A stretch of 64,000 bases of DNA. Source: Bacteroidia bacterium 43-41. Lineage in GTDB: Bacteria > Bacteroidota > Bacteroidia > Bacteroidales > Dysgonomonadaceae. The notes under the pieces were generated by a model. It did no database searches. It was not told the origin of the DNA and was given only the letters and a program-made list of their open reading frames with translations. The translations under genes were made by a program, and so were the position numbers. This document shows positions 8,061 through 14,972 of the stretch, piece after piece. How positions within the stretch are numbered: the stretch's first letter is position 1; each line of letters starts with the position of its first letter. The stretch lies in contig MKTD01000035.1 in the NCBI GenBank assembly GCA_001898165.1, positions 1 to 64,000 on the forward strand. The letters run 5' to 3'.

Positions 8061-9419
8061 TCATTTATCCTCTTTTTCCATCTTGTTAAGCAGGCGGATC
8101 TGTATGATAAGCAGATAGGTTGATAAAATGGCAGACAGGACATCGGCCACGGGCATGGCGATCCAGAGACCGTCCAATCCCCAGAAACGAGGGAGTATGA
8201 TGATTCCGGGAACCAGGAAGATCAGCTGGCGGCTCAGGCTCTGTATGATGGATTTAGTAGCGTATCCCAAACTCTGGAAGAAGCTGGAGGCCACTATTTG
8301 CATCCCCACGAGCGGGAAGGCGGCGATGGTTATCCGAATCCCCTTTTCGGTGATCGAGAGCAGATCCGGATCGCTGGTGAAGGCCAGAGCAAACAGGTGC
8401 GGAAAGAACTGGCCGATGATGAAAGCCACAGTGGTGATTGTCGTTGCCACTTTCAACGAATAGTAGAGTGTTTGCTTCACCCTGCCGAAATCGCGGGCGC
8501 CGTAGTTGTACCCGATGATGGGCTGTGTACCCTGATTAAGCCCCAGTATGATCAGCAGGAAGGTCATGAGCACCGTATTGATGATGCCGTATGCTCCAAC
8601 CGCCAAGTCGCCCCCGTGACGCATGAGGGAAGTGTTCAGCAGTACCGCTACGCCGGAAGAGGCAACCTGCATACTGAACGGCGATAACCCTATGGAGATA
8701 ATGGCGCCGATAATCTTCTTGTCAAGCTTCAGGTTTTTCCACCGGAGGCGGATCAGGCTGCTTTCCTGCACGAAATGAACCATGACAAACAACATGCCGA
8801 TGAACATTGAGATTACCGTTGCCCAGGCCACCCCTTTTATTCCCAGATCAAACACGTAGAGGAAGATTGGTGTAAGGATGATGTTAAAGGCAGCGCCGAT
8901 AAGCATGGTAATCATCGCTTTCTTGGGATATCCCGAAGAGCGCATCATGGCGTTGAAGTTGTAGCAGAGGCTCACGAACACATTTCCCAACAGGACGATC
9001 TGCAGGTAATCGTGTGCGTAGGGAAGGGTGAGGTCGCTGGCGCCGAATGCCCTCAGGATGGGATCGAGAAAGATCATGAACAGGGTGATGAAGACGGCGT
9101 TAAGGATAACCGTGAGCGACAGTGAGTTGCCGAGGATCTTTTCAGCGGTCTGCTTGTCCCTTTTTCCCAAACTGATGGAGATACGGGCTGCACCGCCTGC
9201 TCCCACAAGCATCCCCAACGAGGAGGTAAGGTTCATCACGGGGAATGTGATGGCAAGGCCGGAGATAGCCAATGCCCCTACTCCCTGTCCGATAAAGATA
9301 CGCCCGATCACGTTGTACATCGCGGTGACCATCGTCCCCACAATACCGGGGAGAGCGTAATTCCATACTAACGCGCTAATCTTCTTAGTCCTAAAATCTT
9401 TCTCTCTGTCTGTCTGCAA
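8061..9419 (-). CDS. MATE-family multidrug/Na+ antiporter
   Basis: A 452-residue integral membrane protein with about twelve hydrophobic segments arranged as two similar halves, as in MATE exporters (NorM/MepA type). The N-terminus 'ALVWNYALPGIVGTMVTAMY' and the region 'YGIINTVLMTFLLIILGLNQGTQP' match MepA-like members. It would export cationic compounds in exchange for Na+ or H+; the substrate cannot be read from sequence. It is convergent with sbcC and its 5' region shares the 9420-9982 spacer with the threonine operon. No consensus -7 box was found upstream. Confidence 0.88.
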   Translation of the reverse strand: MQTDREKDFRTKKISALVWNYALPGIVGTMVTAMYNVIGRIFIGQGVGALAISGLAITFPVMNLTSSLGMLVGAGGAARISISLGKRDKQTAEKILGNSLSLTVILNAVFITLFMIFLDPILRAFGASDLTLPYAHDYLQIVLLGNVFVSLCYNFNAMMRSSGYPKKAMITMLIGAAFNIILTPIFLYVFDLGIKGVAWATVISMFIGMLFVMVHFVQESSLIRLRWKNLKLDKKIIGAIISIGLSPFSMQVASSGVAVLLNTSLMRHGGDLAVGAYGIINTVLMTFLLIILGLNQGTQPIIGYNYGARDFGRVKQTLYYSLKVATTITTVAFIIGQFFPHLFALAFTSDPDLLSITEKGIRITIAAFPLVGMQIVASSFFQSLGYATKSIIQSLSRQLIFLVPGIIILPRFWGLDGLWIAMPVADVLSAILSTYLLIIQIRLLNKMEKEDK

Positions 9420-9594
9420 AATTTCTATTTAATATTTTATCAGATGTTTCAATCTTTTTGTCGCAATATTCATCAGCCTCTTATCGGTGCGTCTGACAGG
9501 AAAAAACTATTCCCTGTCGCATAAGCAGATAAATATAAGCAAAGTGGGGCAAAATTAGTCAAAATCTTCCACATGTCCCGTTTTTTTTTTAATG

Positions 9595-9713
9595 ATTCAA
9601 CTTTTGCATGTTTCCCCGGATAGTACATGTGACTAAAGCATAGACCTTTAGATGTTTTACGGGGGTACCCCTGGCTCACGATAAACGTAAAAAGGAGTAG
9701 CTGTTCAAGCGGA
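9595..9713 (+). repeat. Dispersed intergenic repeat, copy 2
   Basis: Begins 'ttcaacttttgcatgtttcc', continues through a tagaccttta core, cgggggtacccctggctcacg and ataaacgtaaaaaggagtag. It carries the same left arm (cgcatgtttccccggatag-like) as copy 4 in reverse. It lies in the divergent spacer between the MATE gene and the threonine operon. Confidence 0.78.
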
Positions 9714-9771
9714 TTAAAACTATTTTTTTAGCAATTTTATTATTTTCTTCAAATATTCCTTTATCTTTGCA

Positions 9772-9779
9772 AGATATTT
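9772..9779 (+). promoter_or_regulatory. -7 box (TATCTTTG) of the threonine operon
   Basis: TATCTTTG fits TAnnTTTG. Transcription would begin about five bases further on, leaving only a very short untranslated lead before the leader peptide ATG at 9790. No clear -33 TTTG is visible. Confidence 0.55.
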
Positions 9780-9789
9780 AGACGTTGCA

Positions 9790-9858
9790 ATGAATTTTTC
9801 ACATTCAACATACACCACTCCTTTCACAATGACTATGACCCCCTGGGGGGTTATATAA
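9790..9858 (+). CDS. Threonine-rich leader peptide of the thr operon
   Basis: A 22-codon frame ATG 9790 to TAA 9856-9858 between the promoter at 9772 and thrA at 9983. Six codons are threonine (codons 7, 9, 10, 13, 15 and 17) and the last is isoleucine, far above chance for so short a frame, and it sits where an attenuation leader is expected. A shorter in-frame start at 9829 would keep only two threonines. A strong hairpin overlaps its last codons (9834-9855). The rest of the leader, 9864-9982, contains short self-complementary pieces (aaccggtt near 9900; ACCGTT/AACGGT around 9945-9960) that could form alternative structures. The role in sensing charged tRNA-Thr is inferred. Confidence 0.65.
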   Translation: MNFSHSTYTTPFTMTMTPWGVI

Positions 9859-9863
9859 TTTTT
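9834..9863 (+). terminator. Terminator-like hairpin inside the thr leader (candidate attenuator)
   Basis: TATGACCCC (9834-9842) pairs with GGGGTTATA (9847-9855) over nine base pairs, one of them G-T, with loop CTGG. A run of five T follows at 9859-9863 after TAA. It overlaps the final Thr-Pro-Trp-Gly codons of the leader peptide, so a ribosome stalled at threonine codons would cover its left arm. Confidence 0.55.
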
Positions 9864-9982
9864 CACATCCACACGGCAACGCTGTTTGTCACTTGCAAAT
9901 CAACCGGTTTGCCACTTATCATCCAACTTTTTTGTTTCATTAAAACCGTTCTCAACGGTAAAAAATATTCATAAACACCTAT

Positions 9983-12427
9983 ATGAAAGTTATGAAATTC
10001 GGAGGGACATCCGCAGGGACTCCCGAAAATATGCTTTTAGTCAAAAACATTATAGAATCTGAAAAAGAGCCTGTAATTGTTGTGGTTTCCGCTCTCGGAG
10101 GCGTTACCGACCGTCTTTTGCTGGCGGCAGATTTTGCATTAAACGCAAATCCGGGTTACCAGCCGGTATTGGAGGAAATCATTTTCCGTCACGAGGAGAT
10201 GATCGGGAAAATGGTGGTTTCTGCTGCCGCTAAAACCGAACTGAAACAGAAAATAGGCCCGATGTTCGAAGACCTTCGCAATATCTTGCGCGGAGTCTAT
10301 CTGATTGGCGACCTGTCACAAAAGACATCGGATAAGATTGTCAGTTACGGCGAGCGTTTTTCCTCACTCATCATGAGCAAAATAATAGACGGCGCCAGGG
10401 TCTATGACTCCACCCGGTTCATCAAAACCACAAAACTATTCAACCACCACATACCCGATATCGCTTATTCCAACGAACTTATCAGGCAGGCATTCTTAAA
10501 TGAACCGCTCCCCAAAGTGGCCATAGTGCCGGGATTTATCTCTTCGGCCAAGGAAGGGGACGACCTCACCAACCTGGGGCGCGGAGGCTCAGACTACACT
10601 GCCGCTATTATTGCTGCCGCGCTTGACGCTTCGGTCCTAGAGATATGGACGGATGTGGATGGTTTTATGACGGCCGATCCCAAAATCATCAATTCTGCTT
10701 ATGTAATTGAAGAACTTTCGTTTACTGAAGCTATTGAGTTGTCCAACTTCGGGGCGAAAGTGATCTATCCGCCAACCATCTTCCCCGTTTATCACAAGAG
10801 CATCCCTATCCGCGTAAAAAACACCTTCAGGCCCGATTCGGAAGGAACGCTTATCCGCAATATAGAGCCTACCCCTAACGGGAAAATAATCAAAGGCATT
10901 TCATCAATTAACGATACCGCCCTGATCACTATCCAGGGACTCGGCATGGTAGGCGTTATCGGTGTGAACAAGAGGATTTTCTCGGCACTGGCGGATAACG
11001 GCATCAGCGTGTTCCTGGTATCCCAGGCTTCGTCTGAAAACAGCACTTCCATCGGAGTCCGCACACAGGATGCTCCGCTTTCGCAGAAAGTACTCAGCAA
11101 AGAGTTTGCCAAAGAGATAAAAATGGGGAGTATCAATGAAATTATTGTCGAATACGACCTGGCAACCATTGCCGTGGTGGGGCAAAACATGAAACATGTA
11201 CCGGGTGTTGCGGGTAAGTTTTTCGGGACGTTAGGCAGGGGCGGCATCAGTGTTGTCGCACTGGCTCAAGGCGCATCAGAAACCAATATTTCCTGTGTCA
11301 TCGCCAAAAGTAACCTGAAAAAAGCACTCAACACTATCCACGATTCGTTTTTCCTGTCGCCTTATCAGGAATTAAACCTCTTTGTTATCGGTACCGGGAC
11401 GGTCGGAAGCAAATTACTGGCGCAGATCAATCAGCAAAAACGTACTCTCGAAGAACAAAACAAGTTGAAAATAAACATCGTGGGGATCGCAAACGGACGA
11501 AAGGCGATGTTCTCGCGCGATGGAATTTCCCTCGATAATTACTTCGACAACTTAATGTCCAACGGCGTCAAAAGTTCTCCCGAGCTTATCCGGGACGAAA
11601 TTCTTAAAATGAATATCTTCAACTCCGTTTTTGTGGATTGCACCGCAAGCAAAGCTATATCCGATTTGTACGAAAGCCTGATCTCAAGGAACATCTCGGT
11701 AGTGACAGCCAACAAGATCGCGGCGGCGTCCGACTATAAAAATTATCATCACCTGAAGGAAACCGCCCGGAAAACCGGGACAAAATTCCTTTTCGAAACC
11801 AACGTAGGAGCCGGATTACCCATTATCAACACGATGAACTCACTGACTAACTCGGGGGATAAGATCATTAAGCTCCAGGCGGTTCTATCGGGGACATTGA
11901 ACTTTATTTTCAATACGCTGAGCGAAGATATTCCTTTCAGCAAAGCCGTAAGAATGGCGGTTGACGCACAATTTGCCGAGCCCGATCCGCGCATCGATCT
12001 GAGCGGACTCGATGTTACCCGCAAATTGGTGATCCTCTCGCGGGAGGCAGGAGCTAAAGTTGAACAGGAAAATGTACAAAAGCACCTGTTCATACCGCAA
12101 AAGTATTTCGAGAGCACCCTCGATGAATTCTGGTCAACCATCCCCGAAATGGACGAAGCATTTGAAAACCGTAGAAAACAACTCGATAAAGAAGGGAAAA
12201 AGCTCCGCTTTATTGCTACGTACGACAATGGGTTATGCGAAGTTGGGTTACACGAAGTAGAAAAAGGGCACCCCTTCTACGATTTGGAAGGCAGCAACAA
12301 CATCATTATGATCACTACCGAGCGCTACAACGAGTACCCGATGGTTATAAAGGGTTATGGCGCGGGTGCGAGCGTTACGGCTGCCGGTGTTTTCTCCGAT
12401 ATTATTTCTATTGCGAATATACGGTGA
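9983..12427 (+). CDS. thrA: Bifunctional aspartokinase / homoserine dehydrogenase I
   Basis: An 814-residue fusion enzyme for the first and third steps of threonine biosynthesis from aspartate. Residues 1-290 are the aspartokinase ('MKVMKFGGTSAGTPENM', and 'GRGGSDYTAA' in the nucleotide site); residues about 310-460 are the paired ACT regulatory domains ('QGLGMVGVIGVNKRIFSAL', 'VAVVGQNMKHVPGVAGKFF'). From about 468 comes the homoserine dehydrogenase with its Rossmann motif 'GTGTVGS' and the later 'AEPDPRIDLSG' catalytic region. Length matches E. coli ThrA. It is the first structural gene after the threonine leader; the ACT domains imply feedback control by threonine as well. The next gene starts 38 bases downstream. 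Confidence 0.95.
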   Translation: MKVMKFGGTSAGTPENMLLVKNIIESEKEPVIVVVSALGGVTDRLLLAADFALNANPGYQPVLEEIIFRHEEMIGKMVVSAAAKTELKQKIGPMFEDLRNILRGVYLIGDLSQKTSDKIVSYGERFSSLIMSKIIDGARVYDSTRFIKTTKLFNHHIPDIAYSNELIRQAFLNEPLPKVAIVPGFISSAKEGDDLTNLGRGGSDYTAAIIAAALDASVLEIWTDVDGFMTADPKIINSAYVIEELSFTEAIELSNFGAKVIYPPTIFPVYHKSIPIRVKNTFRPDSEGTLIRNIEPTPNGKIIKGISSINDTALITIQGLGMVGVIGVNKRIFSALADNGISVFLVSQASSENSTSIGVRTQDAPLSQKVLSKEFAKEIKMGSINEIIVEYDLATIAVVGQNMKHVPGVAGKFFGTLGRGGISVVALAQGASETNISCVIAKSNLKKALNTIHDSFFLSPYQELNLFVIGTGTVGSKLLAQINQQKRTLEEQNKLKINIVGIANGRKAMFSRDGISLDNYFDNLMSNGVKSSPELIRDEILKMNIFNSVFVDCTASKAISDLYESLISRNISVVTANKIAAASDYKNYHHLKETARKTGTKFLFETNVGAGLPIINTMNSLTNSGDKIIKLQAVLSGTLNFIFNTLSEDIPFSKAVRMAVDAQFAEPDPRIDLSGLDVTRKLVILSREAGAKVEQENVQKHLFIPQKYFESTLDEFWSTIPEMDEAFENRRKQLDKEGKKLRFIATYDNGLCEVGLHEVEKGHPFYDLEGSNNIIMITTERYNEYPMVIKGYGAGASVTAAGVFSDIISIANIR

Positions 12428-12465: not shown

Positions 12466-13671
12466 ATGAAATATATTATAATTCTTGGCGACGGAATGGC
12501 CGATGAGCCCATTGCAAAACTTGGCAACAAAACTCCTCTGCAGGCGGCAAAAACGCCCTATATGGATGAGCTGGCGCAAAAAGGACGTAGCGGGATGCTC
12601 GACACCATTCCCGAAGGCATGTCTCCCGGAAGTGAGATTGCCAACCTTTCGGTTCTGGGATATGATGTCCCCGGGGTTTACGAAGGACGGGGCGTGCTGG
12701 AAGCGGCCAGTATGGGGGTGGACATTCTGCCGGATGAAATGGCGATGCGTTGTAACCTGGTCACTATTGAAGGCGACGCGCTGAAGAACCACTCAGCCGG
12801 GCATATTTCCACGCCTGAGGCTGCCGAACTGATCCATTTCCTGAACGACAAACTCGGAAATGAGCTGTTCAGTTTTTATCCCGGCGTTTCGTACCGGCAT
12901 TTGCTAAAGATGAAAGGTGGAAACAAAAACATCGTTTGTACTCCCCCACACGATGTCCCCGGCAAGCCCTTTCTCCCGTTGCTGGTCAAACCGGCCGACG
13001 AATCTGCTCAAAGCACTGCCGACGAACTGAACAAGCTGATCCTGGCTTCGCAGAAAATATTGCAACACCATCCCGTGAATCAAAAAAGAATTGCCGGGGG
13101 AAAAGAGCCGGCAAACAGTATCTGGGTGTGGTCGCCCGGATATCGTCCCGCCATGCAGCCGCTGAACAAGAAGTACCCCATTAAAAAAGGGGCGGTCATT
13201 TCGGCGGTTGACCTCATCAGGGGAATCGGCGTATATGCGGGATTGGAGGTTATCCGTGTAGAAGGCGCCACCGGATTGTACGACACCAATTACGAAGGGA
13301 AAGCCCGTGCTGCCTTAGATGCACTCAAAGAGAACGATTTTGTTTTCCTCCACATTGAGGCCAGCGACGAAGCAGGACACGAAGGCGACGTTGACCTGAA
13401 GGTAAAAACCATCGAATATCTTGATTCGCGCATCGTAAAACCCATTTACGAAGAGACACGGCAAATGGATGAAAACGTCCTTATCGCCATCCTCCCCGAT
13501 CATCCAACGCCATGTGCCATTCGTACGCACACCCGTGATGCCGTCCCTTTTGTTATTTACCACAAGGGGATTTTGCCCGACGGCGTAAAGACATACGATG
13601 AGTTCGCTGCAAAAGAAGGCGCTTTCGGCCTGCTTCGCGGGGATGAATTTATGAAAATGTTGATGAAATGA
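12466..13671 (+). CDS. apgM: apgM-like protein, probable homoserine kinase of the thr operon
   Basis: A 401-residue alkaline-phosphatase-superfamily protein of the cofactor-independent (archaeal-type) phosphoglycerate mutase family: 'IILGDGMADEP' at the N-terminus (metal-binding Asp9), 'GSEIANLSVLGYD' with the putative catalytic Ser, and a C-terminal metal site with 'DHPTP' and 'THT'. The ATG at 12466 is chosen because this motif starts the domain; upstream in-frame sequence lies inside thrA. It sits between thrA and thrC, where thrB (homoserine kinase) would be expected, and no GHMP-type thrB is present. The established family activity is interconversion of 3- and 2-phosphoglycerate; homoserine phosphorylation here is inferred from the operon. 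Its stop overlaps the thrC start (ATGA), suggesting translational coupling. Confidence 0.8.
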   Translation: MKYIIILGDGMADEPIAKLGNKTPLQAAKTPYMDELAQKGRSGMLDTIPEGMSPGSEIANLSVLGYDVPGVYEGRGVLEAASMGVDILPDEMAMRCNLVTIEGDALKNHSAGHISTPEAAELIHFLNDKLGNELFSFYPGVSYRHLLKMKGGNKNIVCTPPHDVPGKPFLPLLVKPADESAQSTADELNKLILASQKILQHHPVNQKRIAGGKEPANSIWVWSPGYRPAMQPLNKKYPIKKGAVISAVDLIRGIGVYAGLEVIRVEGATGLYDTNYEGKARAALDALKENDFVFLHIEASDEAGHEGDVDLKVKTIEYLDSRIVKPIYEETRQMDENVLIAILPDHPTPCAIRTHTRDAVPFVIYHKGILPDGVKTYDEFAAKEGAFGLLRGDEFMKMLMK

Positions 13672-14972
13672 ACTATTACAGCACCAACGGATCCGCACCC
13701 GGAGCATCGCTGCAGGAAGCGGTGGTGAGAGGGCTTGCGCCCGACAAAGGGCTTTATATGCCCGAAAAGATTTCCCGGCTTCCGAAAGAATTTTTCGATG
13801 AGATCGGCAATCCGGGATTGACAGACATTGCCAAAACAGTAGCTCATGCTTTCTTTGGTGGAGATATCCCGAAAGCAACGCTCGATAAGATGGTTGCCGA
13901 TACACTCAATTTCGAGATTCCGCTCGTTAAGGTGGAGGAGGGAGTTTACGTGCTGGAACTTTTTCACGGGCCAACGTTTGCCTTCAAAGACGTGGGCGCC
14001 CGGTTTATGGCGCGTATGTTATCCTATTTTGTGCAAGAGCAGGAACAAGAAGAGGTGAACGTGCTGGTCGCCACCTCAGGCGACACAGGAAGCGCGGTTG
14101 CTAACGGTTTTTTGGGAGTGAAAGGGATCCGGGTCTTTGTGTTGTATCCGTCGGGAAAGGTGAGCGATATTCAGGAAGCGCAGTTTACAACACTGGGACA
14201 GAATATCGTGGCGCTTGAAGTCGACGGAACGTTCGACGATTGTCAGTCGCTGGTAAAATCGGCGTTTATGGATGAAGAATTAAATTCGCAGATGAACCTC
14301 ACATCGGCTAACTCCATCAATGTCGCGCGGTTTATTCCGCAATCGTTCTATTATTTCCACGCATACGCGCAACTACCAAAACAGGGACTTGATACAGTAA
14401 TATCCGTTCCCAGCGGAAACCTGGGAAACCTTACCGCAGGGCTCTTCGCCAAACGAATGGGATTGCCGGTAAAACGGTTTATTGCCGCCAATAACCGCAA
14501 CGATGTATTCCGGGAGTACCTGCAATCGGGAAAATATTCCCCACGAGCCTCCGTGCAGACTGTTGCCAACGCCATGGATGTAGGCGCACCCAGCAACTTT
14601 CACCGCATCCTCGACCTGTACGGCCATTCTCACGAAGCTATCTCGAAAGATATCTCCGGATACCGGTTTTCCGACGAAGAGATAAAATCGGCCATCAAAC
14701 GGGTTTATGAGAGCTCGGGTTATCTTCTTGACCCGCACGGCGCCTGCGCTTACCTGGCATTGAAAGAGGGCAAAAAAGCCGGTGAGACCGGTATTTTCCT
14801 CGCCACCGCACACCCTGCCAAGTTTAAAGAAACCGTGGAGAATTGTATTGGAAAAGAGATCGAAATTCCCGAAGGGCTAAAAGCGTTTATGAAGCAAAAA
14901 AAACAATCACTCCCGCTCTCCAGGGAGTTCTCTCAATTTAAAAACTGTTTAAATTCCTTACGAAAGAAATAA
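13668..14972 (+). CDS. thrC: Threonine synthase
   Basis: A 434-residue PLP enzyme converting O-phosphohomoserine to threonine, the last step of the pathway. 'GPTFAFKDVG' holds the PLP-binding Lys107, 'SGDTGSA' is the phosphate-binding loop, and 'NSINVARFIPQ' is typical of the family. Length agrees with E. coli ThrC. The start overlaps the apgM stop by four bases. It ends the operon: repeat copy 3 follows, then the promoter of lptD. Confidence 0.95.
   Translation: MNYYSTNGSAPGASLQEAVVRGLAPDKGLYMPEKISRLPKEFFDEIGNPGLTDIAKTVAHAFFGGDIPKATLDKMVADTLNFEIPLVKVEEGVYVLELFHGPTFAFKDVGARFMARMLSYFVQEQEQEEVNVLVATSGDTGSAVANGFLGVKGIRVFVLYPSGKVSDIQEAQFTTLGQNIVALEVDGTFDDCQSLVKSAFMDEELNSQMNLTSANSINVARFIPQSFYYFHAYAQLPKQGLDTVISVPSGNLGNLTAGLFAKRMGLPVKRFIAANNRNDVFREYLQSGKYSPRASVQTVANAMDVGAPSNFHRILDLYGHSHEAISKDISGYRFSDEEIKSAIKRVYESSGYLLDPHGACAYLALKEGKKAGETGIFLATAHPAKFKETVENCIGKEIEIPEGLKAFMKQKKQSLPLSREFSQFKNCLNSLRKK

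Follow-up and report, generated by a model that had tools for sequence, protein, structure and literature searches.

A predicted threonine leader peptide with an overlapping hairpin upstream of thrA in Bacteroidia

The window, that is, the whole 64,000-nt stretch of DNA that was analyzed, contains a forward-strand operon whose function, production of threonine, coincides with the identity of the codon repeated in the leader upstream of it. The first gene, thrA (9983..12427), encodes bifunctional aspartate kinase/homoserine dehydrogenase I (NF006959, 993.8 bits versus a cut-off of 726), and thrC (13668..14972) encodes threonine synthase (TIGR00260, 316.5 bits versus a cut-off of 167.1). The gene between them (12466..13671) is proposed to encode a homoserine kinase of the ApgM type in the role of ThrB (TIGR02535, 558.8 bits versus a cut-off of 446.3); its product is scored higher by NF003242, a phosphoglycerate mutase model.

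The leader upstream of thrA, on the same strand, starts with a -7 promoter box read from the sequence, TATCTTTG (9762..9769), of the TAnnTTTG type, the Bacteroidetes -7 consensus. It is followed by a leader open reading frame (9790..9858) of 22 codons that runs from the ATG at 9790 to the TAA at 9856-9858 and encodes the peptide MNFSHSTYTTPFTMTMTPWGVI; six Thr codons and one Ile codon are read directly, and the Thr codons are kept in orthologues. The frame between the -7 box and thrA is therefore as the earlier note had described it. The end of the frame is overlapped by a 9-bp hairpin, H1 (UAUGACCCC / CUGG / GGGGUUAUA, 9834..9855), predicted from the fold and from covariation of its closing pair. 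Its arms (9834-9842 and 9847-9855; loop CTGG) form four G-C, four A-U, and one G-U pair. The bases of H1 come from the last Thr codon and the final part of the frame: the hairpin begins in the codon preceding the last Met-Thr pair, and the last sense codon closes it. The TAA stop is followed by five T residues (9859-9863), and the segment 9856..9863 carries a putative U-tract, proposed from the sequence and from the T fraction in the clade defined below. The nine-base-pair hairpin over the last codons and the five-T tail reported previously are thus both present, except that the tail does not adjoin the stem, the three bases of the stop codon lying between them.

Three further hairpins are predicted between the stop codon and thrA. 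The consensus fold of 16 clade leaders contains H2 (GGCAA/UUGUC, 9875..9890), which shows little covariation, and H3 (GCAAAUC/AACC/GGUUUGC, 9895..9912), a rival candidate for a 3:4 hairpin. A run of six T residues (9928..9933) lies about 15 nt past H3 and recurs in the alignment of the same 16 leaders. H4 (ACCGUU/AACGGU, 9945..9959), seen in the sequence and in the consensus fold, is followed by an A-rich stretch up to thrA; H4 as a switch of translation was considered and set aside. H2, H3, and H4 are kept in the 16 close relatives, and both sides are changed in 2 of 18 pairs, hence the little covariation. The whole leader of the window folds somewhat better than its shuffles (z -1.90; 9 of 200 shuffles equally good). 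A near-repeat was also observed in the leader, AATTTTTCACATTCAACA at the start of the frame (9793-9810) resembling AATTTTTCACATCCACAC directly past its stop (9857-9874).

To compare regions upstream of thrA, we used five sets: the clade (60 loci with a ThrA identity of 72% or more), lower-identity relatives in the same family (24), the order (39), other orders within the class (20), and named loci (79), which overlap the clade set. The other-order sample comprised 20 of 41 matches from the same class, chosen for diversity, and included none of the 105 matches from outside the class. Clade loci L035 and L043 (less than 200 nt upstream) and the named locus L155 (starting within the gene) were left out of the scan, and G007, G093, G095, and G097 (partial thrA) and G182 (53 nt upstream) were not included. 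A region was scored as a match if it contained an open reading frame with at least three Thr codons among the last 15 and a hairpin at the stop; dinucleotide shuffles served as the control.

The scan matched 53 of 58 upstream regions in the clade (shuffles, 8 of 580), 10 of 39 in the order (3 of 390), 10 of 20 in other Bacteroidia orders (2 of 200), and 28 of the 79 named loci that overlap the clade set (3 of 790). Among the lower-identity relatives of the same family no match was found in 24 regions (shuffles, 1 of 240). In the clade and in part of the other Bacteroidia, the comparative search for Thr codons and a hairpin before thrA, which had been proposed as a check, came out in favor of a conserved Thr leader. 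Named holders that pass the scan include Petrimonas sp. IBARAKI, whose ThrA is the closest named one (94% identical), Proteiniphilum acetatigenes, Bacteroides pyogenes, B. ndongoniae, B. ilei, and Coprobacter secundus. Of the 53 clade members having the H1 core, 52 carry a -7 type box, TA..TTTG, 67-86 nt upstream of it. A search of the genome with ACCCCNNNNGGGGTTAT for other copies of the H1 core returned the thr leader as the sole match. By comparison, the Thr codons, their position relative to H1, and H1 itself are supported as parts of the predicted element.

Five clade loci fail the scan (L012, L019, L063, L070, and L071). In L063, H1 is present and the Thr codons are few. L019, L070, and L071 branch deeply within the clade and carry a leader of another kind (for example, MYNLYSIYSTSYPMPRLGKK), poor in Thr codons and with a hairpin other than H1. 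In two loci of Proteiniphilum acetatigenes (L032 and L154), the leader is about 240 nt farther from thrA than that of the window, with the H1 core at -379.

The placement of Thr codons was examined in 79 leaders that were picked for the H1 core and include close relatives, so that the counts given here are uninformative on frequency. Across the 12 codons preceding the core, the frame set by the final ACC has 3.73 Thr on average, versus 0.13 and 0.24 in the other frames. The third frame is also open across the 12 codons in 71 of 79 leaders; thus, the peptide frame is marked by its Thr content and not by openness. Thr codons are denser in the seven codons beside H1 (220 of 553 positions) than in the following five (75 of 395). 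The assumed frame lacks Thr altogether in L166 and L193, and L190 carries its Thr codons in a different frame. The peptides are otherwise dissimilar (compare that of the window with MMFWQLHITTTTTTTPAGV and MEIFITYTTSYHVAATATTTTFTTTR), suggesting that the Thr codons are kept rather than one peptide. The stop codon lies 6 bases past the A of ACC, within the hairpin loop, in 16 leaders, whereas in the others it is found at 12 bases (16 leaders), 15 bases (6), 18 bases (33), or further (8).

The closing pair of H1 in the clade (9834-9855) joins the base preceding AUG to the last codon's wobble base. The clade has 14 distinct flank pairs, of which four are GC, four CG, three TA, and one AT, with two unpaired, and the total of 12 paired was reached by none of 2000 permutations. 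Outside the clade, 38 of 39 leaders retain the A-U pair beside the core and the remaining one has G-U there, and pairing of the outer stem does not exceed chance (observed 81 versus 74.0 permuted; 163 of 2000 permutations as good). This pattern suggests that the widely shared part is the Thr codons with a short hairpin of the last Thr codon, having the stop within or beside it.

Amino-acid attenuators have been best described in Proteobacteria. Like the enterobacterial thr leader thrL, the leader in the window encodes a Thr-rich peptide before the same operon function, for which codon-based sensing is the natural reading; unlike thrL, it has a very different peptide, far fewer Ile codons, and no recognizable separate terminator. 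The Rfam family Thr_leader (RF00506) was not matched: at the gathering score the window has only a tRNA match and 20 related loci have none. The literature searched, mostly open access, yielded no description of a Bacteroidetes thr leader; a comparative study of attenuation by Lopatovskaya et al. (2010) may cover it. In B. thetaiotaomicron, according to a transcriptome study, some long 5' UTRs hold small open reading frames reminiscent of leader peptides (PMC7366714).

Two leaders of the same genome provide a closer comparison. Upstream of hisG (L225 1353-1467, G000 contig C60), a His-rich frame (MKVNRLHHHHFHTCSQAS) is followed 35 nt past its stop by a predicted terminator with a T7 tail and a score of d +35.9, where d is a terminator score of the d'Aubenton-Carafa type computed here; on its sequence, this is a classical his attenuator. 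Upstream of leuA (L227 1320-1456, G000 contig C33), a branched-chain leader rich in Ile and Leu (MNNQYIAILVISILLLEDFGG) has a terminator 48 nt past the stop (T7, d +26.0). In both, a leader strand is complementary to the 5' arm of the terminator, with duplex energies, calculated without a shuffle control, of -11.9 (his) and -16.1 (leu) kcal/mol. Since the genome has these leaders with strong terminators, control by leader peptides is to be expected there. No leader was found upstream of trpE and ilvD, as these genes seem to lie within operons. The thr leader shares with the his and leu leaders a short peptide rich in the amino acid of the operon, encoded upstream of its first gene; it differs from them in having no separate strong terminator, T7 tail, or complementary leader strand.

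Taken together, the conserved Thr leader, the Thr-specific frame, and the covariation of the closing pair lend good support to threonine attenuation. The stretch leads into the operon thrA-(apgM-type homoserine kinase)-thrC and probably attenuates it in response to threonine by way of a translating ribosome. Such control by a leader peptide, as suggested in the earlier note, remains the best reading because the Thr codons lie both beside and inside the 5' arm of the hairpin and this arrangement is conserved well beyond the genus. In the proposed mechanism, a ribosome would follow RNA polymerase closely while translating the Thr-rich peptide. A shortage of charged tRNA-Thr would make it wait at the Thr codons that abut and enter the 5' arm of H1, H1 would be unable to fold, and the operon would be transcribed. 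When threonine is plentiful, the ribosome would clear the peptide, H1 would fold, and fewer polymerases would get to thrA. We infer the stalling, the role of H1 as the switch, and the direction of control. H1 could be blocked by a ribosome stalled on Thr codons, the blocking being imposed in our folds. Two features sit badly with pure threonine sensing. The earliest Thr codons of the window (7, 9, and 10) are too far upstream for a ribosome stalled on them to cover H1, so that a stall there would favor its folding. In addition, Parabacteroides-like leaders (L156, L159, L163, L166, L184, and L186) keep the H1 core with a YYTWALMTPWGV-like peptide that has 0-3 Thr in 12 codons, and they have no U-tract. 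Orthologous leaders without Thr codons had been named as an argument against attenuation; the clade does not show this loss, and the Thr-poor Parabacteroides-like leaders with H1 do so in part.

A chance combination of a frame and a hairpin hardly comes into consideration: small open reading frames are frequent in short AT-rich leaders, but neither the excess of clade matches over shuffles nor the concentration of Thr in a single frame is explained in this way. The other readings of the leader differ in what H1 does. According to the earlier note, H1 is an intrinsic terminator that overlaps the end of the peptide gene and is blocked directly by the stalled ribosome, a layout like that of pyrBI with Thr codons being read; we consider this reading somewhat more doubtful than likely. 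H1 is the sole terminator-like site in 9400-10050 (one found; shuffles, mean 0.3, sd 0.6), and in 28 of 38 clade members no terminator candidate in the leader scores higher than the hairpin overlapping H1. The clade tail is enriched in T (fraction 0.46, compared with 0.30 elsewhere in the leader), and 36 of 54 sequences have five or more T in eight positions. Blocking H1 barely alters the rest of the fold, a ribosome footprint on the Thr codons, which blocks H1 by construction, changing downstream pairing in the window by at most 0.08. In the distant leaders L097, L099, and L109 the hairpin with the stop in its loop scores as a real terminator (d +18.2, +8.0, and +4.0, respectively). These are the three of 36 other leaders examined with d above zero, and the remaining 33, as well as 37 of 38 clade members, are below it. 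For H1 of the window d is -27, compared with +35.9 and +26.0 for the his and leu terminators, and the U-tract is modest; the claim that H1 is a terminator is not supported by this score. The d score was derived from E. coli terminators, so that a low value does not exclude function; two ends of convergent genes tested in the window as a yardstick gave 30.1 and -4.0.

Classical attenuators have their first (1:2) hairpin over the stop codon, where H1 also sits, and in the E. coli trp leader the regulatory codons and the stop codon lie in the first hairpin, similarly to H1; the 2:3 antiterminator and 3:4 terminator of trp, in contrast, were not recognized in the window. The E. coli pyrBI leader senses pyrimidines via polymerase pausing and not via codons, and there a lagging ribosome leads to more termination, a sign opposite to that needed by the thr leader. 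The pyrBI terminator lies inside the leader peptide gene, and ribosome and hairpin compete directly (PMC4824070); H1 overlaps its own frame with a low d. With these precedents, the contrast to the classical layout drawn in the earlier note is weaker than claimed. Experiments in E. coli showed nearly complete repression of a terminator separated from a stop codon by no more than a few bases (PMC4824070), and another paper has the ribosome covering up to 12 nt past the stop (PMC4833913). Accordingly, a ribosome completing the peptide in the normal way would keep H1 open as well. The earlier statement that a stalled ribosome would directly block the hairpin thus meets a problem of sign: because the finishing ribosome covers H1, this model has no means of terminating at plentiful threonine, except where the polymerase is delayed or the ribosome falls behind.

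Alternatively, the leader could be a four-region attenuator in which H1 is the 1:2 (pause) hairpin and its 3' arm, freed by the stalled ribosome, pairs downstream and prevents a 3:4 hairpin (H3 or extended H3 with the T6 run), a reading that we regard as possible but doubtful. It agrees with the position of H1 over the stop codon, with the retention of H2-H4 in the 16 clade leaders, and with separate terminators found in other Bacteroidia thrA leaders (L137, d +8.5; L139, +36.8; L141, +30.0); these terminators, some in Thr/Ile-rich leaders, suggest that the classical form is also present before thrA in the class. When 28 clade leaders were folded with the ribosome footprint, the median downstream change was 0.33 and the freed arm paired downstream with a median maximum probability of 0.52, with partners that vary between leaders; by this modeling, a downstream switch may operate in part of the clade. 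In 75 leaders, which were picked for the H1 core with close relatives included and are uninformative on frequency, the 3' arm has an above-chance downstream partner (z < -2) in four (L008, L099, L143, and L214), but the search revealed no general partner of this arm (region 2; mean z +0.19, window +1.48), which rules it out as an antiterminator strand common to the group. Nor does the window leader contain a canonical intrinsic terminator downstream of H1 by score: extended H3 with the T6 run is the best rival there (d -8.4), yet it is below zero and loosely closed, and the run lies at some distance from H3. The absence of such a terminator in the window would suit an improbable third reading based on Rho or processing, in which the peptide sets the ribosome-free time of an unstructured pyrimidine-rich leader past the stop and H1 merely aids release or pausing; the tail TTTTCACATCC is largely common to close clade members. 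However, this reading leaves the retention of H1 unexplained.

For the clade as a whole, a direct output of H1, as a weak terminator or as a pause leading to termination, has nearly an even prospect of being correct; the output of a classical 1:2 hairpin is a lesser possibility, and other outputs such as Rho are unlikely. Within threonine attenuation, we tentatively propose, while holding it to be rather unlikely, a one-hairpin design for Bacteroidia: the last Thr codon would form the 5' arm, the stop would lie in the loop or at the 3' edge, no antiterminator would be required, and the residence time of the ribosome on this codon by itself would set transcription. This core would be kept across orders while the peptide, the outer stem, and the downstream leader are replaced, and it would have become a full terminator in L097, L099, and L109.

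On sequence evidence, this is a predicted widespread Bacteroidia Thr leader with no Rfam match and an unusual one-hairpin layout. If true, a Thr leader before thrA in several Bacteroidia orders, including named gut genera, would represent a regulatory element absent from Rfam. The layout, in which a regulatory codon forms the hairpin and the stop codon falls inside or next to it, is at odds with the textbook two-state model. Within the same genome, the his and leu attenuators, whose design is ordinary, would provide a built-in comparison for a hairpin that is also covered by the finishing ribosome.

Several variants of the downstream leader were noted in the course of the comparison. In the window, CGUUGC at the 5' end could pair with GCAACG of H2 by eye, and this pairing was rejected as it is absent from L005 and L014. 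In L139, L141, and L142, which belong to other Bacteroidia orders, the region before thrA combines a leader rich in Thr and Ile with a separate, GC-rich terminator, as in the classical form. In the Bacteroides-type leaders L181, L200, L206, and L223, inspection by eye revealed a GATAGAAACA-like sequence before the frame and ACTATCC early in the frame, with complementary sequence directly past H1 (GGATAGT, TGTTTCTAC); the resulting long-range helix would enclose the whole frame.
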